Notes under the pieces: generated by a model
The model's input: only the letters and a program-made list of their open reading frames with translations
What the model was told of the DNA's origin: nothing
Database searches by the model: none
Shown here: positions 176-25,338 of the stretch, in pieces
Layout: each line of letters starts with the position of its first letter
Numbering within the stretch: the stretch's first letter is position 1
Position numbers and translations under genes: made by a program
Assembly (NCBI GenBank): GCA_948470005.1
Contig: CAOKNI010000014.1
Span: 1-25,420, forward strand
Length of the DNA stretch: 25,420 nt
Reading direction: 5' to 3'
From: an uncultured Mycoplasmatota bacterium
Lineage (GTDB): Bacteria; Bacillota_I; Bacilli_A; RF39; UBA660

Positions 176-487
176 TTAATCGTTATACATACTTTTTACA
201 CAATGACTATCTCCTCCTCCTGCATTTATGTGATTAGATACAACTATAACATCATTACCTTTTCCAAATAAGCTTTGTGTTTTCTTTGGTCTGTCAGAAG
301 CACTAAGTGTCGTATCGCTAGTTCTAGTAAGAGCATTTTCTATACCTAATTCATTTAGCCTATCTGCCATATATTTACTTATCATTAAAGTATAATCTTT
401 CTCTACTATTCCATTCGCGCTAGTACCTGGGTCACTCCCGCCATGACCTGGATCAATTACTACTTTTTTATTTGCCCTTTCATTCAT
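176..487 (-). pseudogene. Truncated N-acetylmuramoyl-L-alanine amidase (Amidase_3), N-terminal half only
   Basis: The 103-residue product begins at ATG 487, chosen because AGGTGAT lies just upstream; that SD overlaps the alternative in-frame GTG at 496. Residues 8-90 match the first half of the Amidase_3 zinc-dependent peptidoglycan amidase fold: VVIDPGHGGSDPG with zinc ligand His15, Glu29 in the VEKDY segment, and His86 in SNHINAGGGD. After GGGD the sequence changes to a short unrelated tail and stops. The second half of the catalytic domain, including the catalytic Glu expected near the C-terminus, is missing. I found no continuation in the other two frames, so this looks like a deletion and not a single frameshift. 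There is no signal peptide. It is most likely a gene remnant; a retained zinc-binding fragment is less likely. Downstream is a terminator, upstream the sigma-like gene. Confidence 0.7.
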
Positions 488-534
488 GATTATCACCTAA
501 TGTAATATATGAAAAACTAAAAAAATTGTCCTTA

Positions 535-1425: not shown

Positions 1426-2028
1426 CACATACTTAATTATAATATGTCTATCTGGTTCCTCGCCAACGCTTTCCGTCTTAATATCTTTAAAATTAGTAAG
1501 AACATTATGTACAATTCTTCTTTCATAAGAATTCATACTATCCATTTGTGCATCAACTTTTGTCTTTCTAACATCAAAAGCTAAATTCTTCGCAAGTCGC
1601 TCCAATCTTTTAATTTGCTTTTCTCTATAATCTTCCACATCTAAAATAATTCTTGGGCCATTAAAAGTAATGTTTTTCACCAACTGTTTCGCAAGCACAC
1701 TAAGTGCTGCTAAATTTTGACCATTTTTACCAATTATCAAAGCACTATCTGGAGAATATATTTTAATTGTCGTCGTATTCTCACTTGTACTTACTTCTAA
1801 ATTAACAGTTGCACCCATGCTTGTAATAACTGTTTTCACATATTCTTCTACATCTGCTATAATATCAAGTTTTAAAAAACCTGAACATTCATAAGTTGTT
1901 CCTTTAAATAACCCCCCTTTAATCTCTAAGAAATCATAATTTACTTCTGCTTCGCTCGCATTTAATTCTTTTAATACTAAATTTAAAGCTTCTTCTTTCG
2001 TCTTTGCACTCTTTTTTACTACATTCAT
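1417..2028 (-). CDS. khpB: RNA-binding protein KhpB (Jag, SpoIIIJ-associated)
   Basis: A 203-residue cytoplasmic RNA-binding protein of the Jag/KhpB/EloR family. The N-terminal Jag-N domain covers residues about 3-50 (SAKTKEEALNLVLKELNASE). A type II KH domain follows with the GxxG loop G100-K-N-G103. The C-terminal R3H domain contains ERRIVHNVL (Arg170, His174). Jag forms an RNA-binding pair with KhpA and in several Bacillota affects cell elongation and division; in B. subtilis its gene follows spoIIIJ. Here it starts 2 bases after the yidC stop, with RBS AGAGGT overlapping the end of yidC, so the two are translationally coupled. It is the last gene of the operon. The length is normal and both RNA-binding signatures are intact, so I am confident. 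Confidence 0.95.
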   Translation of the reverse strand: MNVVKKSAKTKEEALNLVLKELNASEAEVNYDFLEIKGGLFKGTTYECSGFLKLDIIADVEEYVKTVITSMGATVNLEVSTSENTTTIKIYSPDSALIIGKNGQNLAALSVLAKQLVKNITFNGPRIILDVEDYREKQIKRLERLAKNLAFDVRKTKVDAQMDSMNSYERRIVHNVLTNFKDIKTESVGEEPDRHIIIKYVGE

Positions 2029-2030
2029 TA

Positions 2031-3035
2031 CTACTTACCTCTTTTCTTCTGAGCTTTTTTAGGTTTAATTATTTCACCTTTTTTATCCTTACGTTCATCA
2101 AGCTTTTTAAACACAAACGTCTGCAATACTACAAATCCATTAGTAGCAATCCAATATAAGGCAATCGCTGTTGATAAATAAAGAGATGCTACCGAAATCA
2201 TTACAATCATAAATTTAAACATAAATTGCATTTGTTTTTCCATTTCCGGATTTCCCGTCTGTGTTGTTGAAGACATCGAATGTCTAAAAGATAAATAAGT
2301 AGTTAAGATAATAAGGACAATAATTATTATATAAAGCCACTCATGATATTCAAATAATCCCACCATTGGCGTCCTACCTAAAACCAAACCTAAAAATTTA
2401 TCCTCAAAAATCGCTGGTGTTCTATTAATCGCTTGTAAGAAAGCAAAGAACAACGGAAGTTGTATAAAAGCAAGTAAGCAACTACCAAAAGGACTTATAC
2501 TATATTTTTTATAGACCATCATCATTTCTTGCGATTTTGCAATCATCGCTTCATTATCCGTTTTATTTGCATATTTTTTCTCAATTCTCGCTAATTCTGG
2601 CTGAGCTTTTTTCATGTTTTCTGATTGTCTCATCGTTTTTCTTGAAATAGGCATTAAAATAAGTCTAATTGCTAAACCAATTAAGATAACCGCAAGCCCA
2701 AAACTGTTAATTAAATATCCAAACTTCAAAATAAGAAATGCTAATGGTTTTACAAATATGCCTTCCCAAATTCCCGTTGATTTATTACTAGATAATTTAA
2801 AATCACTACATTTTGGCATCTTATCATAATCAATCTTTGTTTGGTCCTTATATTTCGTATAAAGTTCATCCAATTCTTTATCTTCCGGCTTACATAAAAT
2901 ATCTTTCTGTAAAATCTGTCCTGTTGATTTATTTTCAACAGTTTTTTTATCACCATCCATAATATAATTACTATTACCACAAGCGGTTAATGATAAAAGC
3001 ATTATTGCTAACACGCCAATTTTTAATTTTTTCAC
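2031..3035 (-). CDS. yidC: Membrane protein insertase YidC/SpoIIIJ (lipoprotein)
   Basis: A 334-residue YidC/Oxa1-family insertase that helps the Sec system, or acts alone, to insert proteins into the cytoplasmic membrane. The N-terminus is a lipoprotein signal (MKKLKIGVLAIMLLSLTAC) with lipobox LTAC and lipidated Cys19. A long outward-facing segment (about residues 20-88) contains Cys48 and Cys76. The 60KD_IMP domain starts around residue 92, with the conserved groove Arg124 in GLAIRLILMPISRK, an amphipathic cytoplasmic loop (residues about 131-165), and four further hydrophobic segments. The C-terminal tail is strongly basic (KPKKAQKKRGK), which suits ribosome contact. The start is GTG, overlapping the rnpA stop by 4 bases (GTGA), with AAAGG upstream. 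The region between the lipid anchor and the first conserved segment seems longer than in B. subtilis SpoIIIJ. Confidence 0.95.
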   Translation of the reverse strand: MKKLKIGVLAIMLLSLTACGNSNYIMDGDKKTVENKSTGQILQKDILCKPEDKELDELYTKYKDQTKIDYDKMPKCSDFKLSSNKSTGIWEGIFVKPLAFLILKFGYLINSFGLAVILIGLAIRLILMPISRKTMRQSENMKKAQPELARIEKKYANKTDNEAMIAKSQEMMMVYKKYSISPFGSCLLAFIQLPLFFAFLQAINRTPAIFEDKFLGLVLGRTPMVGLFEYHEWLYIIIIVLIILTTYLSFRHSMSSTTQTGNPEMEKQMQFMFKFMIVMISVASLYLSTAIALYWIATNGFVVLQTFVFKKLDERKDKKGEIIKPKKAQKKRGK

Positions 3036-3367
3036 TTTTCTGTTCCTTTCTTAAGTACTAAATTTATCAAATTATATTCCATTTCTTGATAACTAATACT
3101 TCCAATATCTTTTCTCACCATTATAATATAATCATTAAAAGCGTTAAATAAATTTTTATTATTATCTACAATCATTCTAAGTTGCCTTTTTAATTTATTC
3201 CTCACCACCGCATTACCACATTTTTTACTTACAGCAAAGCCAAACTTAGGAAATTTGGTAACACTATCCTTATAATATATATTATAATATTTATTCTTTA
3301 AAAACTTCCCTGTTTTAATTATATCATTAAACTCTATATTTTTCTTTACAATTTCATACTTTTTCAA
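3032..3367 (-). CDS. rnpA: Ribonuclease P protein component
   Basis: The protein subunit of RNase P, which assists the RNA subunit in 5' processing of tRNA precursors. The family signature NAVVRNKLKRQLR is at residues 52-64, preceded by FGFAVSKKCG. I choose TTG at 3367 as the start because it gives MKKYEIVKKNIEF, the usual RnpA opening, and has GGATGTGAT about 6 bases upstream, close to the consensus GGAGGTGAT. A longer in-frame extension to 3409 would add a hydrophobic stretch encoded by the rpmH terminator tail, which is implausible. The product is 111 residues, typical for the family. It ends with a 4-base overlap with yidC. A terminator sits between rpmH and this gene, so expression probably depends on partial read-through. 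Confidence 0.93.
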   Translation of the reverse strand: MKKYEIVKKNIEFNDIIKTGKFLKNKYYNIYYKDSVTKFPKFGFAVSKKCGNAVVRNKLKRQLRMIVDNNKNLFNAFNDYIIMVRKDIGSISYQEMEYNLINLVLKKGTEK

Positions 3368-3393
3368 ATTTTTATCACATCCAATAATTATTA

Positions 3394-3423
3394 AGAAAAA
3401 AAATACCACTTAAAAATAGTGGT
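3394..3423 (-). terminator. Intrinsic terminator/attenuator between rpmH and rnpA
   Basis: On the minus strand a 6-bp stem ACCACT / AGTGGT with a 7-base loop is followed by ATTTTTTTTCTT. The stem begins at the last base of the rpmH TAA and ends about 27 bases before the rnpA TTG. It should let most transcripts stop after rpmH and pass a fraction into rnpA-yidC-jag. Confidence 0.75.
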
Positions 3424-5617: not shown

Positions 5618-6736
5618 ATGAAATTCACAATTGAAAAAAATATTATTTTAGAAGGATTAAACAATGTTATAAGAGCAATATCAACCAAAAATGTCATTCC
5701 TATTTTAAATGGAATAAAATTTGAACTAACAGATAAAGGATTATTTCTAACTGCTAGTGATTCAGAATTAACAATTAAAGTTTTAATTGAAGCAAAAGAC
5801 ATTAAAAATATTACAAATACTGGAGGTATAATAATTCAAAGTAAATATATATTAGACATTATTAGAAAAATGCCAAGTAACACTATAAATTTTGAAGTTA
5901 TAGATGGACTTAAAATTAAAATCTATACCGACAATAACCAATATAATTTAAACTGTTTAGACATTAATGATTATCCCGATATTAAACTAGAGGAAAGTAA
6001 AGAACCTATAACTATTGCTGGCGATTTATTTAAAACCATAATAAATCAAACAGTTTTTGCCATTTCAAATCAAGAATTAAGACCAATTTTAACAGGTATA
6101 AATCTAAAATTTAATAAAGACGTTTTAGAAACAGTTGCTACCGACTCTTACCGTTTAGCAAAGAAAAACATTAAATTATCCACAACGGTTGAAAAAGAAT
6201 TTGAAATTGTCATTCCTGGCAAAAATATTATGGAATTAGAACGAATTATATCTGATGAAGAACCAGTAGAAATTCATATTTTCAACAACAAAGCTTTATT
6301 TAAATATAAAAACATTAATTTTCAAACAAATCTTTTAAGCGGAACATATCCCAATACTTCAAATTTAATTCCTAGTGAATTTGCTTATATTGTTAAAGTA
6401 AATAAAAAGGATTTCAACGATGCTATTGATAGAGCTGCTTTACTTACTCAAGGTAAAGACAAGAATATTGTTAAAATGTCTTTAGAAAATACAAAAATGA
6501 TTATCAATTCTTATGCTTCCGAAATAGGTAAAGTTGAAGAAAATTTAACAGTTGAAACCAACAATAAAGAAAAACTTGAAATATCATTTTCTTCTAAATA
6601 TATGTTAGAAGCTTTAAAAACTATGCAAGAAGACGACATTTTATTATTACTAAATAGTGATGTTAAACCTTTAATAATTAAATCTTTAACAGACGAATCT
6701 TTAATTCAATTAATATTACCTATAAAAACATACTAA
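5618..6736 (+). CDS. dnaN: DNA polymerase III beta subunit (sliding clamp)
   Basis: A 372-residue protein matching the bacterial sliding clamp, which encircles DNA as a dimer and tethers the polymerase. The three repeated clamp domains can be followed: MKFTIEKNIILEGLNNVIRAISTKNVIPILNGIKFE at the start, the second domain around LRPILTGINLKFNKDVLETVATDSYRLA (about 148-175), and a C-terminal domain ending LIQLILPIKTY, where the conserved C-terminal segment forms the partner-binding pocket. The ATG is preceded by AAGGAA. It is the second gene after oriC, in the standard dnaA-dnaN arrangement. A perfect DnaA box TTATCCACA occurs inside the coding sequence at 6176-6184, which may be chance. Confidence 0.97.
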   Translation: MKFTIEKNIILEGLNNVIRAISTKNVIPILNGIKFELTDKGLFLTASDSELTIKVLIEAKDIKNITNTGGIIIQSKYILDIIRKMPSNTINFEVIDGLKIKIYTDNNQYNLNCLDINDYPDIKLEESKEPITIAGDLFKTIINQTVFAISNQELRPILTGINLKFNKDVLETVATDSYRLAKKNIKLSTTVEKEFEIVIPGKNIMELERIISDEEPVEIHIFNNKALFKYKNINFQTNLLSGTYPNTSNLIPSEFAYIVKVNKKDFNDAIDRAALLTQGKDKNIVKMSLENTKMIINSYASEIGKVEENLTVETNNKEKLEISFSSKYMLEALKTMQEDDILLLLNSDVKPLIIKSLTDESLIQLILPIKTY

Positions 6737-6757
6737 AATTTAACATTACCGCCACGC

Positions 6758-6786
6758 TTCGACAAATATCGCATTCCTTTTATGAT
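6758..6786 (+). promoter_or_regulatory. Candidate promoter of the comK-like gene
   Basis: TTCGAC at 6758-6763, a 17-base spacer and TATGAT at 6781-6786 form a plausible vegetative promoter, about 38 bases before the chosen TTG start. It suggests that the ComK homologue is transcribed separately from dnaN as well as by read-through. Confidence 0.6.
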
Positions 6787-6823
6787 ATAACATAAACATT
6801 TATACATGAAAGGGGGCATAAAG

Positions 6824-7273
6824 TTGACATATATCATAAATGAAAAAACTTTAGCCATTATGCGAGAAAAAAAGGAGTCTCGAATTATTGAAGACCACAA
6901 TTGTTTTTTAGTACCAGAGGACCCAGTCGATATTATAAATATGAACTGTCAATTAAATGGTTCAAGTTTAGAGGGATGTCAAAACGGAAGTTCCTATCTT
7001 ATAGGCACAAGTTATAAACCGCCAATAGTAATTAATAATGTTAAAAATTTAATTTTAATTCCTACGCATTCGCATCGCAATAAAAAATGCTGTTGGATAA
7101 TTTTGCATAATCTTGCTAATTACTATCCTTACGATTCTGAAGTCATAGTTGAGTTTCAAAATCAATTAAAAATGCTTGTAAATATTAGTTATACTATATT
7201 TGATAAACAAGTTTTAAGAGCTATCCGTTTAGAATCAACAATAAGAAAACGAAATAACAAAAAACACCTTTAA
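6824..7273 (+). CDS. comK: ComK-family competence transcription factor, short form
   Basis: A 149-residue protein that aligns by eye with B. subtilis ComK, the master activator of competence genes. Matching blocks in order are: NCFLV...DPVDIINMNCQLNGSSLEG (residues about 26-51, compare RSCRFFGSSYAG), GTSYKPPIVINNVKNLILIPTHS (61-83, compare SHKPPIMVDPSNQIFLFPTLS), CCWI (89-92, compare CGWI), and ISYTIFDKQVLRAIRLEST (121-139, compare ISYNSFENQVYRTAWLRTK). TTG at 6824 is preferred because AAAGGGGG lies 7 bases upstream; ATG at 6806 overlaps that RBS. B. subtilis ComK has 192 residues; this one ends before the region with the FMLYP MecA-recognition motif. The gene occupies the slot of the small S4-domain gene rlbA/yaaA. 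It has its own promoter and terminator. Target genes are unknown. Confidence 0.82.
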   Translation: MTYIINEKTLAIMREKKESRIIEDHNCFLVPEDPVDIINMNCQLNGSSLEGCQNGSSYLIGTSYKPPIVINNVKNLILIPTHSHRNKKCCWIILHNLANYYPYDSEVIVEFQNQLKMLVNISYTIFDKQVLRAIRLESTIRKRNNKKHL

Positions 7274-7287
7274 AAAGGTTTTTTTTT
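7266..7287 (+). terminator. Terminator overlapping the comK-like stop codon
   Basis: A 5-bp stem ACCTT / AAGGT with loop TAAA is followed by eight Ts. The TAA stop codon occupies most of the loop. A TATAAT at 7292-7297 directly after the T-tract could be the -10 of a recF promoter, although its -35 would be weak. Confidence 0.75.
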
Positions 7288-7362
7288 ATGATATAATTAA
7301 TCTAGGTATAGGAGTACATAAATACCACTTATCTTAAAATAACATCAAAGTAGGGGCTAAAA

Positions 7363-8451
7363 ATGGAAATTATCAATTTAAAATTACTAAATTTTCGAAA
7401 TTATGAAGAATTAGAAATTAATTTTTCCAATAAGACAAATATTATTTATGGTCAAAATGGTATGGGAAAAACTAATTTAATCGAAGCAATTTACATGTTA
7501 GCTGTTACTAAAAGCTTCCGCTTTGGCGCCGATGATGTTGTTATTAAAAAAGGTAAAAGCATTTCTAAAATTGAAGGAACAATTAAAGATAATATTTCTA
7601 ATAAGTATAAAATTATTATTAATGAAGCTGGCAAACGTCTCAAAATTGATAACAATAAAATTGTTAAAACAAGTGACTACATCGCTAGAATAAATATTAT
7701 TTTATTTAGTCCTGATGATTTAAAAATTATTAAAGACACTCCTATGACTAGAAGACGTCTTTTAAATATCGAAATCTCAGGCATTAATAGTGCTTACGCT
7801 GTTTTATTAACCAAATACAATAAAGTTTTAAAACAAAGAAATGCTTATTTAAAAGCTCTTAATAAAAAAAATATATATCAAAATGACTTTTTAATTATTT
7901 TAACTGAACAATTAATAGATATTGGTCTTAAAATTGTAGAAATACGAAAAAAGTTTATAGAAAATATTAATACTTACATTAGCGATATATATTTTAGTAT
8001 AACCAATAAAGGCCAGTTATCACTTAATTATAAAAGTGAATTTAAAAACAAAACCAAAGAGCAATTATTAAAAATTTATGCTAAAAATATTTCCCGGGAA
8101 ATAATTATGGGTAAAACTTTGTTTGGCCCTCATCACGATGACTATGAATTTGTCGTTGATAAAGAGCTTGTTCGGGAATATTCATCAGTTGGTGAACAAA
8201 AAAATAGTGTTATTGCTTTTAAGCTTGCCGAGATAAAAAATATTGAAGAAGAGCTTCATAAGAAACCTATTTTAATATTAGACGACTTATTTAGTGAATT
8301 AGATAAGAAAAAAATAAATAATATAATAAAATTAATTGATAACGAATTACAAACATTTATAACAACAACTGAAATTGATAATGTTGATGCAAATTTATTA
8401 TCTAAATCTTGCATTTATCACATCTATGACGGTAAAATAAAGGAGGAGTAA
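7363..8451 (+). CDS. recF: DNA replication and repair protein RecF
   Basis: A 362-residue SMC-like ABC ATPase that binds ssDNA-dsDNA junctions and, with RecO and RecR, loads RecA at gaps. Walker A is GQNGMGKT (residues 30-37), the ABC signature region is EYSSVGEQKN (about 268-277), and Walker B is ILILDDLFSELD (about 300-311). The N-terminal MEIINLKLLNFRNY is typical. The ATG follows AGGGGC. It is located upstream of gyrB, whose RBS (AAGGAGGAG) overlaps the recF stop codon, so recF, gyrB and gyrA form one operon. An unusual 16-bp perfect palindrome lies inside the gene at 8088-8103. Confidence 0.96.
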   Translation: MEIINLKLLNFRNYEELEINFSNKTNIIYGQNGMGKTNLIEAIYMLAVTKSFRFGADDVVIKKGKSISKIEGTIKDNISNKYKIIINEAGKRLKIDNNKIVKTSDYIARINIILFSPDDLKIIKDTPMTRRRLLNIEISGINSAYAVLLTKYNKVLKQRNAYLKALNKKNIYQNDFLIILTEQLIDIGLKIVEIRKKFIENINTYISDIYFSITNKGQLSLNYKSEFKNKTKEQLLKIYAKNISREIIMGKTLFGPHHDDYEFVVDKELVREYSSVGEQKNSVIAFKLAEIKNIEEELHKKPILILDDLFSELDKKKINNIIKLIDNELQTFITTTEIDNVDANLLSKSCIYHIYDGKIKEE

Positions 8452-8454
8452 AAA

Positions 8455-10368
8455 ATGGAAAATAATTACACAGATAATGATATTCAAGTATTAGAAGGAT
8501 TAGAAGCAGTTCGAAAACGACCTGGTATGTATATTGGGTCCACAAGTGTAAAAGGTCTTCATCACCTTGTTTGGGAAATAGTCGATAATGCTGTTGACGA
8601 ATCTTTAGCGGGATATTGTGATGATATTGAAGTAGTAGTTCATAAAGACAATTCTGTATCTGTCCGAGATGATGGTCGTGGAATGCCGACAGGAATTAAC
8701 CAAAAAACTGGACTTTCAACGATTGAAACAATATTCACAGTATTACATGCTGGTGGAAAGTTTGGTGGCGGTGGCTACAAAGTCTCAGGCGGCTTACACG
8801 GTGTTGGCGCGAGTGTCGTAAATGCCTTATCAACTTGGCTTGAAGTTCGTGTTTATCGCGACGGCGAAGTTCACTATCAACGCTTTGAAAATGGTGGCCA
8901 TCCATGCGAACCAATGCGCATAACCGAGACTTGTGCTAAAGAACGTACTGGTACTACGGTTACATTTAAAGCTGACCCGAAAATATTTCAGGAAACTACC
9001 GAATTTAACTACGAAACTTTGGCTACGCGTCTTCGCGAATTAGCTTTCTTAAATAAAGGGCTTAGAATAACTTTAATAGACGAACGTGTTGACGAGAAAA
9101 AAGATGTATTTTGCTATAATGGTGGAATCATTGAATATGTAAATATGCTTAATAAAAATAAACAAGCTCTTCATGAAGAAGTAATATATGTTGAAGGAAA
9201 AATCGATAATATTAGCATTGAAGTTGCCATGCAATATAATGATTCTTATAATTGTAATTTATATTCCTTTACTAATAACATTAATACTTATGAAGGCGGA
9301 ACTCACGAAGATGGAGTTAAGAATGCTTTAACTAGAATCATTAATAATTATGCTCGTAATAATAAAATATTAAAAGAAAAAGATGACGCTTTAAGTGGCG
9401 ATGATGTTCGTGAAGGCTTAGCAATGATTATTTCTTGTAAACATCCCGACCCTCAATTTGAAGGTCAAACCAAAACCAAATTAGGTAATAGTGAAGTAAG
9501 AAAAATTGCAAGCGACATATTTGGCGCTGGGTTAGAACGTTTCTTAATGGAAAATCCCAATGTAGCTAAATTAATTATTGAGAAATGTATGACCGCCTCT
9601 CGTGCTCGTCTTGCTGCCAAAAAAGCTCGCGAAGCAACCCGTCGAAGTGGAGCTTTAGATGTTTCTAACTTCTTTGGTAAATTATCAGATTGTAAAAGTA
9701 AAGATGCTACAATTAGTGAAATATTCCTGGTTGAGGGTGATTCCGCTGGAGGATCAGCAAAAAAAGGTCGTGATAGTATGACTCAAGCTATTCTTCCCTT
9801 AAGAGGTAAAATTTTAAATGTTGAAAAAGCTCGTTTAGATAGAGCCTTATCAAATGAAGAAATTAGGACAATTATTACCGCATTTGGAACCGGAATTGGC
9901 GATGATTTCAACTTAGATAAACTTCGTTATCACAAAATTATAATTATGACCGATGCCGATGTTGATGGTTCACATATTCGTGTATTATTATTAACCTTAT
10001 TTTATCGCTTCTTTAAACCAATAGTAGAGGCCGGACACGTTTATGCTGCCCAACCTCCATTATTCTGTATAAAACATGGTAAAACTATTAAATATGTGCT
10101 TAATGAAGCGGAACGTGATGAATATTTAGCATCACTTTCACCAACTACCAAATATGAAATATCTCGTATGAAAGGTTTAGGCGAAATGGACGCCGAGGAG
10201 CTTAATGAGACAACAATGGATATTAATAAACGTGTTTTAAGGCAAATTACCGTTGAGGATGCAGTTGCTGCAGATGAAATATTTACTAAACTTATGGGTG
10301 AAGAAGTAGAGCCACGTCGCGAATTTATAGAAACCAACGCTACATACGTTAAAAATTTAGACATATAG
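8455..10368 (+). CDS. gyrB: DNA gyrase subunit B
   Basis: The ATPase subunit of DNA gyrase, which with GyrA introduces negative supercoils. The 637-residue protein shows the GHKL ATPase pocket (DNAVDES with Asn45, DDGRGMP at 72-78, [15 protein letters not shown] at 112-126), the transducer domain, and the Toprim domain with [14 protein letters not shown] (about 425-438) and the metal-binding [10 protein letters not shown] (about 498-507). The QRDR-like segment [13 protein letters not shown] looks wild type. The length and the context directly upstream of gyrA support GyrB and not ParE. The start ATG is 3 bases after the recF stop, with the RBS AAGGAGGAG within recF. GC content and codon use are a little higher than in neighbouring accessory genes. 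Confidence 0.97.
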
Positions 10369-10378
10369 GAGGTTTAAT

Positions 10379-12847
10379 ATGGATAGATTAGAAAAAAATA
10401 ATATAGTAAAAGAAGTACGAGATTCCTTTCTTGATTATTCTATGAGTGTTATTGTCTCTCGTGCTTTACCAGACCTTCGTGATGGTTTAAAACCTGTTCA
10501 CCGTCGTATTTTATATGATATGCTTCAAAATGGATTAACTCCCGAAAAACAGCATCGTAAAAGTGCCACAATAGTAGGTGATGTTATGGGGAAATACCAT
10601 CCTCACGGCGACTCAAGTATTTATGAAGCTATGGTTCGTATGGCTCAAGATTTCAATTATCGCTACATGCTTGTTGATGGTCATGGTAACTTTGGTAATA
10701 TCGAAGGCGATGGTGCCGCGGCATATCGTTATACTGAAGCTAAGTTAGCTAAAGTCTCAATGGAATTACTCCGTGATATAAATAAAAACACAGTTAATTT
10801 TACACCTAACTATGATGAAACTACCAAAGAACCTGAAGTTTTACCAGCCAGATTTCCTAATATTTTAGTTAATGGAACCATGGGAATCGCCGTTGGTATG
10901 GCAACAAATATTCCCCCTCATAATTTAGGCGAAGTAATCGATGGATGCATAGCATATATTAATAATCCTGAAATTGATACCATGGGGTTAATGGAACATA
11001 TCAAAGGGCCTGACTTTCCAACTGGCGCAGTAATTTTAGGTAATAGTGGTATCAAAAAAGCTTATGAAACTGGTCGTGGAAGTATTACTATTCGCTCCCG
11101 TGCTCATATTGAAGAAAAAAATGGCCGCGAATACATTATAGTTGAAGAAGTTCCTTATGGTATAAACACCTTAGAACTAAAAAACAAAGTCGCAGAATTA
11201 GTTCATAATAAAGTTTTAGATGGCATTACGGATTATCATACAGATTTAAAAGATGGTGTTAAAATAACAATTACATTACGAAAAGATGCAAATGCCCAAG
11301 TTATTCTTAATAAATTATATAAGCATACTGCTTTTCAAACAACTTACGGTATTATTTTCTTAATGTTAGATAATGGTGTTCCGAAAACTCTTGGTTTAAA
11401 AGATATCATTTCTAAATATATCGACCATCAAAAAGAAGTAATTATTCGTCGTACAAAGTTTGACCTTGATAAAGCTGAAAAAAGAGTTCATATTTTAGAA
11501 GGTTTAAAAATTGCTTTGGACCATATCGACGAAGTAATAAAGGTCATTAGAGCCGCTGAATCAGACGAAAATGCCAAAGCTGATTTAATGAGTAAATTTG
11601 GTCTATCTGAAATTCAAGCTGAAGCTATTCTGGAAATGAAATTACGGCGATTAACTGGCTTAGAACGTGATAAAGTAGAATCTGAATTAAAAGAATTATT
11701 AGCTCTAATTGATGAGCTTCGAAGCATTTTAGCATCTGAAGAGAAAGTATTAAACATTATTAAAGAAGAATTAGAAGAAATTAAAGATAAATATGGTGAC
11801 AAACGTCGTACTACAATTGATATGACAGCCATTGAATATATCGAAGATGAGTCCCTAATACCAGAAGAAAATGTTCTTATTGCTCTTACTAATAAAGGAT
11901 ATATTAAACGTACTAGTAGTGATACATTTAAAGCTCAAAAACGTGGTGGAATGGGTATTAAAGGTATGAGTACAAATGAGGAAGATTTTGTCGAGCAAAT
12001 GATTAATCTTTCTAGTCACGATTATTTATTATTCTTCACTAATAAAGGGAAAGTATATCGCTTAAAAGGATACGAAATACCTGAATTTGGGCGTCAATCA
12101 AAGGGTTTACCAATAATAAATCTATTACAAATTGATAAAGACGAAAGTATTAATTCTATGATTAGTATTTCTCCAAATGATGAAGCCAAATATTTGTTAT
12201 TTACTACTAAAAAAGGTCTGGTTAAAAAAACCGCAATTAGCGAATTTGAGAACATACGTACGTCAGGGAAAATTAGTATTAGTTTACGTGAATCAGACGA
12301 ATTAATAGCAGTTAAGAAAACAACAGGCGAAGATTATATCTTACTAGGTAGCGATAAAGGTCGTATGGTTAAATTTAAAGAAGAATACATTAGAGCTATG
12401 GGTCGTACAGCCAGTGGCGTTAAAGGAATAAACTTAGATGGCGGTAAATGCGTATGCGCTGAAGTAGTAACAGAGACTGATAAAATATTGTTAGTAACTG
12501 AAAAAGGATATGGTAAGAAGACATTAGTAAGTGATTTCCGTGAAACAAGTCGTGGAAGTAAAGGCGTAAAAGCTTTAAATATTACTGAAAAGAATGGAAA
12601 TATTGCTTCTGTTAAAGTTGTCGATGAAGACAAAGAGCTTGTTATAATGACTAATACTGGAACAACAATGCGAATGACTTTGGAACAAATTAATACGTTA
12701 GGTCGTGTAACACAAGGAGTTAGATTAATTCATTTAAAAGAAAACCAATATGTTACAACAATTAGCTTAGTTGATAAAGAACCAGAGAATTTAGAAGAAT
12801 TAGACTCTGAATCAAAATCATCAGAAGAAGAAAATAGTGCTGAATAA
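10379..12847 (+). CDS. gyrA: DNA gyrase subunit A
   Basis: The DNA-cleaving subunit of gyrase, 822 residues. The catalytic tyrosine is Tyr118 in [11 protein letters not shown]. The quinolone-resistance region reads [17 protein letters not shown] with Ser79 and Glu83, the usual susceptible-type residues. The C-terminal half carries repeated beta-pinwheel blades, and a GyrA-box-like motif QKRGGMG occurs near residue 520, which supports gyrase over ParC. The C-terminus is acidic ([12 protein letters not shown]). ATG follows AGGAGGTTTAAT, 10 bases after gyrB. A terminator overlaps its stop codon, so it is the last gene of the recF-gyrB-gyrA unit. Confidence 0.97.
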
Positions 12848-13527: not shown

Positions 13528-13603
13528 TCAAAAAGCAAAGAAATAATCCAAAATCAAACCTAAAAGTATTGTAAAATAAATGAAAATATGATAAATTAAA
13601 TAC

Positions 13604-13682
13604 GTGCAACAAATATATTGTAATCTGGTCAGGACTGGAAAGTAGCAGCCATATCAATCTCTGTTTGTGTGCACTTTTTTTG
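13604..13682 (+). ncRNA. ffs: Signal recognition particle RNA, small bacterial (4.5S) type
   Basis: The universally conserved SRP domain IV core GGTCAGGACTGGAA followed by AGCAGCC is present at about 13627-13650. The ends pair: GTGCA at 13604-13608 with TGCAC at 13670-13674, then ACAAA with TTTGT after a one-base bulge, giving a single long hairpin of about 71 nt. The terminal stem runs straight into TTTTTTT, so the RNA also serves as its own terminator. A -10-like TATGAT at 13587-13592 places the start at about 13604. There is no Alu domain, unlike the longer B. subtilis scRNA. The RNA pairs with Ffh for co-translational targeting to the membrane. Confidence 0.93.
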
Positions 13683-13702
13683 TTTAAAGGAGTTATATAT
13701 CA

Positions 13703-24822: not shown

Positions 24823-25338
24823 TTGAAGTCCACAGGAGTAATAAGAAGAATAGATGAATTAGGAAGAATTGTAATACCAAAGGAAATTCGCCGAAATTTA
24901 GGCATCCACGACGGAGAAAATGTTGAGATATTTACAGAAGAGGATAGTATAATTTTAAAAAAGCATTATCGTATGAGTTCTAATTTAGAATTAGCCTCAA
25001 GTTTATGTGAACTTATCTATTCCAATTTTAATTATGAAATAGCTATAACTGATCGGGAAAAAATAATTGCCACATCTGGTTTTTCTGCGGAACTTTTAAA
25101 TAAAAGATTATCAAAAGAGTTTTTAAATATCATTGAAAATCGTGAAATAATTGAAAAAGAAGAATACTCATTAACTATTGAAACAGAAAATGTTTTTGGA
25201 AATTTTGTTTTTATACCTATTATATCTTTAAATGATAGTATTGGTCTTGTCATTATTAAGTATTCTAAAGAACAGAATGTACCAACTAATATAGGTAAAC
25301 TTATAGCTAGTATTTTTGCCAAAAAATTAGACATATAA
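24823..25338 (+). CDS. spoVT: SpoVT/AbrB-family transcriptional regulator
   Basis: A 171-residue regulator. Residues 1-50 (MKSTGVIRRIDELGRIVIPKEIRRNLGI...) are an AbrB-type swapped-hairpin DNA-binding domain, almost identical in layout to B. subtilis SpoVT. Residues about 55-170 would form the GAF-like C-terminal domain of SpoVT (178 residues in B. subtilis), a length that AbrB itself, with about 95 residues, lacks. In B. subtilis SpoVT modulates sigma-G-dependent genes in the forespore and its gene follows mfd, as here apart from two inserted genes. The start is TTG with GGGGTT upstream. A TTACAA-17-TAGAAT element (24780-24808) exists but would leave an 8-base leader, so I do not call it a promoter. 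A hairpin pair ends the gene. Confidence 0.88.
   Translation: MKSTGVIRRIDELGRIVIPKEIRRNLGIHDGENVEIFTEEDSIILKKHYRMSSNLELASSLCELIYSNFNYEIAITDREKIIATSGFSAELLNKRLSKEFLNIIENREIIEKEEYSLTIETENVFGNFVFIPIISLNDSIGLVIIKYSKEQNVPTNIGKLIASIFAKKLDI

Follow-up and report, generated by a model that had tools for sequence, protein, structure and literature searches.

The window analysed here is a stretch of 25,420 nucleotides from an uncultured Mycoplasmatota bacterium (contig CAOKNI010000014.1), in which a comK gene lies between dnaN and recF (Table 1). Both flanking genes were named by sequence and place, and no other plausible gene was found from the end of dnaN to the start of recF in the window. The ORF listing bounds comK at 6806/6824-7273. 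The TTG codon at 6824 is the start that agrees with the relatives in the alignment, and it lies 7 nucleotides past a Shine-Dalgarno sequence kept in them.

Table 1. Features of the comK locus and other features of the window
Feature	Position	Strand	Remarks
CwlD-like amidase piece, short	176-496		below NCBI cut-off
dnaN	5618..6736	+	left flank of comK
comK promoter module (Spo0A-box region and extended -10)	6746..6792	+	model R2, 39.9 bits, E 7.4e-12
Degenerate half-site ACCGCCA (4/7)	6748..6754	+	10 bp upstream of TTCGACA
TTCGACA, reverse complement of 0A-box core TGTCGAA	6758..6764	+	exact in 31/33 close upstreams
Extended -10 TGATATAAC, TG-A-TATAAC	6783..6791	+	TATAAC starts 21 nt after TTCGACA
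Shine-Dalgarno AAAGGGGG of comK	6809..6816	+	window sequence; kept in relatives
comK	6824..7273	+	149 aa, TTG start, TAA stop 7271-7273
Terminator-like hairpin, weak, with comK stop and T-run	7266..7287	+	fold energy
recF leader element AGGTATAGGAGTA	7292-7316		starts about 6 nt past recF -10
recF	7363..8451	+	right flank of comK
Bacterial small SRP RNA	13595-13685		RF00169, 60.6 bits
SpoVT_C-domain protein	24823-25338		below NCBI cut-off for SpoVT

The product matches the Pfam family PF06338 (ComK) with 112 bits and an E-value of 2.8e-32, the gathering cut-off being 22.3, and the alignment places residues 2-144 on positions 3-151 of the 152-position profile, which is membership over the whole domain. 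A sequence-only reading of this DNA had proposed a ComK homologue and a comparison with the Pfam profile to check it; with this match the gene is confirmed, at the level of sequence, as a genuine member, with the full core, of the ComK family, which switches on DNA uptake in Bacillus. Among about 5.8 billion proteins searched, 36 matched, one of them being the window's own entry. The remaining 35 all belong to PF06338, measure 146-157 residues and are 45-73% identical to the window ComK, and the alignment of the 36 sequences has 27 invariant columns. No NCBIfam family matched the window ComK, a PDB sequence search with it found no solved structure, and the 36-sequence profile gave there just two rows at chance level.

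At the 3' end of comK, a hairpin at 7266-7279 and its T-run have a folding energy of -5.8 kcal/mol (z -1.29), which 17 of 200 shuffles reach, and a similar hairpin is visible by eye in many close relatives, not all. The terminator attributed to the gene by the earlier reading is plausible as a hairpin but weak, and the terminator pattern scan found none at comK. The leader element past the recF -10 is also present in close relatives. Over 1.5 Mb of retrieved sequence, in which some places are included twice, GGTATAGGAGTA was counted 49 times; TATAAT plus GGTATAGGAGTA also has 49 occurrences, at recF by context, and at least 11 of the 13 positions of the motif are matched in 25 of 42 recF upstreams across the order. 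When window positions 8455-12847 were compared with one relative (L025), gyrB/gyrA showed 96% identity, recF 72% and comK 50%; the gyrB-gyrA stretch is a possible recombination tract.

Scanning named genome contigs with the ComK alignment yielded 32 loci, nearly all from metagenome-assembled genomes (MAGs) whose titles read uncultured Bacilli, Tenericutes or Mycoplasma. comK directly follows dnaN in 32/32 and recF is next in 30, the sequences of L004 and L015 ending before the recF position. The distant genome L031, whose ComK and DnaA are 36% and 39% identical to those of the window, shares this gene order. ComK was found in 184 of 193 sampled genomes of the order to which G006 belongs, and MAG incompleteness may account for some absences. 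Fifty order loci were inspected, comprising the 30 best-scoring ComKs (L111-L140) and 20 hand-picked from the listed matches (L141-L160). Judged by tblastn with the window's proteins over about 1.5 kb, comK adjoins dnaN and/or recF in 44 of them (24 of the 30 best-scoring and 20 of the 20 others) and lies outside the slot in six (L127, L130, L132, L136, L138 and L140); in L149 an extra ORF separates comK from recF. The position between dnaN and recF, and the proposal that related genomes share it, thus held on survey. The earlier reading also regarded comK as a replacement of rlbA. That gene is indeed absent from the window's slot, and no rlbA-like ORF was seen by eye in the wider comK-recF gaps of ten order members, but this is the normal state of the order and nothing special to the window. 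comK is a core gene of the order with the dnaN-recF slot as its usual home, not a local oddity; the finding of an order-wide, short ComK in the origin slot is confirmed, sound, broader in range and less strange than originally stated. Judged by title, the papers covered on ComK with RF39 and on comK together with dnaN and recF are incidental, and the main text of a 2024 paper on these orders mentions neither ComK nor competence.

Such a conserved slot (32/32 and 44/50 loci) would fit a dosage mechanism, in which comK is kept near oriC so that its copies multiply when forks stall, setting off competence. We regard this as very improbable: comK is elsewhere in six of the 50 order loci, origin linkage by itself requires no dosage effect, and comK has a strongly conserved transcriptional site of its own.

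That site is the promoter region, and the promoter assigned to comK by the sequence-only reading is conserved in relatives. The gaps before comK keep a block made of TTCGACA, 16 bases, TATGNTATAAC or -GTA, and then the Shine-Dalgarno sequence. TTCGACA corresponds on the opposite strand to the 0A-box core (PMC3485338, available in part). The exact heptamer is present in 31 of the 33 close comK upstreams, the window included, versus 1 of the 384 regions lying upstream of ten other genes, where the motif had first been spotted by eye in the same 33 upstreams and some of the 384 controls lie within the preceding gene. Shuffling the close comK upstreams gave a mean of 0.32 per 33, and the reverse strand of the real ones 0 of 33. 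Pairs of copies are spaced by 10 bp in 20 of 40 cases and by 20 bp in 17, shuffles giving none at 10. In some relatives TTCGACA or TTGACA-like copies take the place of the window's degenerate half-site in the 10-bp register; the 0A-box core and the register occur together in close relatives, the second copy of the window matching 4 of 7 positions. An initial motif search locked on to the poly-A in which the upstream gene ends, and its result was set aside.

Across the wider order the exact core was found in 17 of 50 comK upstreams (1 on the opposite strand), and this may be an undercount because gene starts are misplaced in a few order loci (certainly in L131 and L157). With one mismatch allowed, 37 of the 50 score, but so do 31 of 73 dnaN upstreams, which makes that test weak. 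The exact core is kept by two of the six relocated comKs (L127 and L136), and in L031 a TTCGACC repeat accompanies the gene.

We built a model of the promoter module, R2, from 47 promoters of comK and PDDEXK_2 genes, the window's among them; in a scan of the window with filters off, the match at comK was followed by a next match at E 0.0076. Matches of R2 at comK are partly due to construction, because comK promoters are in the training set, whereas those at sirA, which was outside it, are not. In the genome searches with R1 and R2, 150 of 1,500-3,400 first-look candidates per genome were scored. At E<=0.02, R2 gave at least 4-19 matches per genome in 19 close relatives and, among the candidates scored, 0-2 weak ones in each of five more distant order genomes. 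At least 101 matches had E <1e-4, and 40 places were fetched, 36 of these and four at E 1.3e-4 to 2.9e-4. The next gene is sirA at 11 places (in 11 genomes), a double-HTH gene at six and, by eye, a PDDEXK_2-like gene at about 15 to 18, the remainder being other or unread; several of the PDDEXK_2-like genes are cut by contig ends, and Pfam was run on one, L316. One R2-linked SirA exceeds the PF10747 cut-off. TTCGACA is present at 13/13 sirA loci, which is no independent test because they were fetched through R2, and the strict promoter pattern matches 16 of 24 PDDEXK_2 loci. SirA is an inhibitor of DnaA, and its gene is controlled by Spo0A. Families of PDDEXK_2 (Rpn-like) genes with Spo0A-box-like promoters were seen in genomes of about 1 Mb (L252-L281, L312-L351), and TTTGACAAAGTTCGACATACATTTTCGACA upstream of one pilin gene (L102) resembles Spo0A boxes.

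Spo0A itself was found in the one close genome searched, where a protein of L010 scores 226 bits with TIGR02875 (cut-off 200). This spo0A (L010:2370-3158) lies about 2 kb upstream of dnaA, a region that in many other relatives holds rnpA, yidC and jag. In the window, the SpoVT_C protein and the CwlD-like piece are signs of a sporulation heritage.

Concerning the control of comK, the earlier reading had suspected a regulation different from that of B. subtilis. This part now has a concrete candidate that it missed, the tandem Spo0A boxes, and on promoter sequence Spo0A appears the better-supported control of comK than gene dosage. We infer that Spo0A~P switches comK transcription at an extended -10 promoter by binding 0A boxes that lie in the 10-bp register around its -35, and that a comK-like promoter would also drive sirA and the PDDEXK_2-type nuclease genes. 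The TTCGACA repeats could instead be bound by ComK, as autoregulation, or by another regulator; the sites do accompany comK in L031 and at some relocated genes, and B. subtilis ComK activates its own promoter (PMC3297582, available in part). This seems improbable, however, in view of the exact 0A-box core in its 10-bp register, the presence of sirA in the same set and the AT-boxes that constitute the ComK sites of B. subtilis (PMC3536758, available in part). Control by Spo0A also agrees with known Spo0A-controlled promoters (B. subtilis PcomK; sirA) in the TGTCGAA core, the 10-bp register and the inclusion of sirA, but the set described here differs from them in including PDDEXK_2-type nuclease and double-HTH genes. 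At sigma-A promoters activated by Spo0A, the -35 and -10 lie far apart. The PcomK of B. subtilis is a direct target of Spo0A~P, which both activates and represses it (according to the available part of PMC3297582), and there the sites differ from the consensus at 1-2 of 7 positions (A1 and A3 by one), whereas the core is exact and at the -35 here. PMC12090719 gave no information on box spacing.

The second peculiarity of this ComK is its length. The ComK of B. subtilis has 192 residues and the FMLYP motif, and the window ComK is about 40 residues shorter. We extracted 82 ComKs and, leaving out L131 and L157 for their misplaced start codons, the remaining 80 measure 146-170 residues; all of these are too short to carry a tail of the B. 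subtilis kind. The lack of the C-terminal region, stated earlier for the window alone, is thus general. Searching 20 genomes (G001-G020, selected for holding ComK) for MecA (PF05389) gave no match in any of them, the same search being positive in the B. subtilis and L. lactis controls. On both counts ComK does not appear here as a substrate of MecA-ClpCP, and loss of the tail fits loss of that control because MecA was found in none of the 20. The ComK of B. coagulans likewise has a shorter C-terminus in which the MecA region is unconserved; it differs in being just 11 residues shorter and in that putative MecA homologues are present (PMC3536758, available in part). With B. subtilis the window's system shares the Pfam family over the full core and, in relatives, comEA-comEC, and differs in the origin slot and in the MecA result. 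That a ComK acting without MecA is switched by Spo0A, the core of our explanation, we consider quite probable. The kind of promoter shared with sirA and PDDEXK_2 genes would then place competence in a starvation or pre-sporulation window, not under release from MecA-ClpCP.

The AF2 model of the window ComK (pLDDT 93.8) contains a LytTR-type beta fold together with helices at 34-60 and a long C-terminal helix. The predicted fold resembles LytTR DNA-binding domains (S. pneumoniae ComE, 4cbv; AgrA, 3bs1; 3d6w), and a second ComK, 34% identical to that of the window, gave the resemblance again. Unlike these regulators, ComK had no sequence match with the LytTR profile, and Pfam hmmscan gave ComK alone at E<=1. 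No Foldseek match of the model reached E 0.001, and a viral-structure search gave nothing useful. No published link between ComK and LytTR was found by title, subscription journals being mostly outside the coverage.

The late competence genes by which the earlier reading proposed to check the function are present in close relatives: in G001-G020, ComEC was found in 18 of 20 genomes, N-methyl pilins in 19 and T2SSE-type ATPases in 20, a 405-aa-like form resembling PilB/ComGA in 17. A ComEA-like gene precedes ComEC, as in L040. In the same 20 genomes DprA (PF02481) was found in none, nor was the prepilin peptidase N-domain, although pilins are present in 19. Parts of the DNA-uptake machine are kept, and with DprA in 0/20, transformation proper is uncertain. 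Among 29 order genomes ComEC is present in 27, including eight of the nine without a ComK match.

Four-copy arrays of 22-bp repeats are clear in seven relatives (G009, G011-G014, G016 and G018; loci L218-L239), where they lie directly upstream of the -35 of comEA-comEC. There are several copies of the arrays per genome, before PDDEXK_2, DUF1016, KilA-N and HicA/HicB genes, and some contigs end inside them. Nine other close genomes have mixed arrays with a period of 21-23. In the wider order, arrays are not evident in the upstreams listed (26 of 27 loci), some of the picks lying inside genes and L174 having similar-looking repeats, and in the window no convincing array was found (best E 0.034 with filters off). 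The arrays before comEA were also read as ComK boxes, AAAA-Nk-TTTT with k from 3 to 11 in 16 upstreams, and this reading was rejected: the AAAA-N5-TTTT boxes expected by the sequence-only reading are not enriched in the 16 relatives (z -1.6 in both groups). AAAA-N7-TTTT is enriched in the comEA upstreams of the seven array genomes (z 4.1). By eye, pilin genes, which are scattered, and PilB/ComGA-like genes have ordinary sigma-A-like promoters without arrays.

We further infer that ComK binds the arrays, with DNA uptake as an output; for the binding itself we would put the chances at even or slightly under. A LytTR-like ComK would bind direct repeats about two helical turns apart and would drive comEA-comEC along with several nuclease, KilA-N, DUF1016 and HicA genes behind arrays. 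A serious competitor, though somewhat short of an even chance, is that the arrays serve some regulator other than ComK or represent phased A-tract bends, in which case the ComK regulon is unknown. It draws on a half-site spacing unlike AAAA-N5-TTTT, on the wider order having ComK where arrays are not evident, and on the retention of ComEC in 8/9 ComK-negative genomes. Against a different regulator, comEA-comEC, the best-placed target, carries arrays, and the LytTR-like fold and the LytTR sites, which are 9-bp direct repeats mostly separated by 12, sometimes 11 or 13, bp (PMC6193735, available in part), fit the array period of 21-22 bp.

It may also be asked whether so short a protein activates at all, since it could bind DNA without activating, as a repressor, an anti-repressor or an accessory of another regulator. 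B. subtilis ComK lacking 25-35 C-terminal residues does not induce comG (PMC3536758, available in part), which counts against a short ComK acting as a simple activator; the pilus genes have no arrays by eye; and ComK diverges far faster than its neighbours, with 45-59% identity to the window in close relatives (L031 left out) versus 81-96% for dnaN, gyrB and dnaA and 67-76% for recF. Yet ComK persists in 184/193 genomes and keeps 27 invariant residues in 36 sequences, and the arrays occupy an activator position directly upstream of the -35. The short form being order-wide, the activation surface may lie elsewhere in ComK, and we consider the non-activating alternative unlikely.

Taken together, the earlier interpretation is partly supported. 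The whole explanation, in which a short, MecA-independent ComK from the core gene set of the order, normally encoded between dnaN and recF, would be gated by Spo0A and act via 22-bp arrays, has in our estimate marginally better than even chances. A bolder reading, which we offer tentatively, is that ComK, the master competence regulator of bacilli, is a divergent LytTR-type DNA-binding protein sharing fold and two-turn direct-repeat logic with ComE, its streptococcal counterpart, and acts in this gut order within a starvation programme linked to Spo0A and SirA. In that programme Spo0A would fire comK, beside dnaA-dnaN, together with SirA, and the output would comprise DNA uptake plus PDDEXK nucleases, KilA-N, DUF1016 and toxin-antitoxin genes.

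Among the new results, those of most use are the promoter with Spo0A boxes, the search that found no MecA, the fold resembling LytTR and the regulon that shares the arrays. A ComK switch is near-universal in an uncultured gut order with small genomes, and the data point to a natural ComK circuit without MecA in which Spo0A is likely a direct gate. If control by Spo0A holds, it is either ancient or convergent at comK, and here it lies within the core promoter. The genes behind the arrays offer a defined candidate ComK regulon for testing. A LytTR-like ComK would account for the spacing of ComK sites by whole helical turns and could unite two competence systems that are studied separately, and the starvation programme, if true, would join replication arrest, DNA import and DNA cutting.
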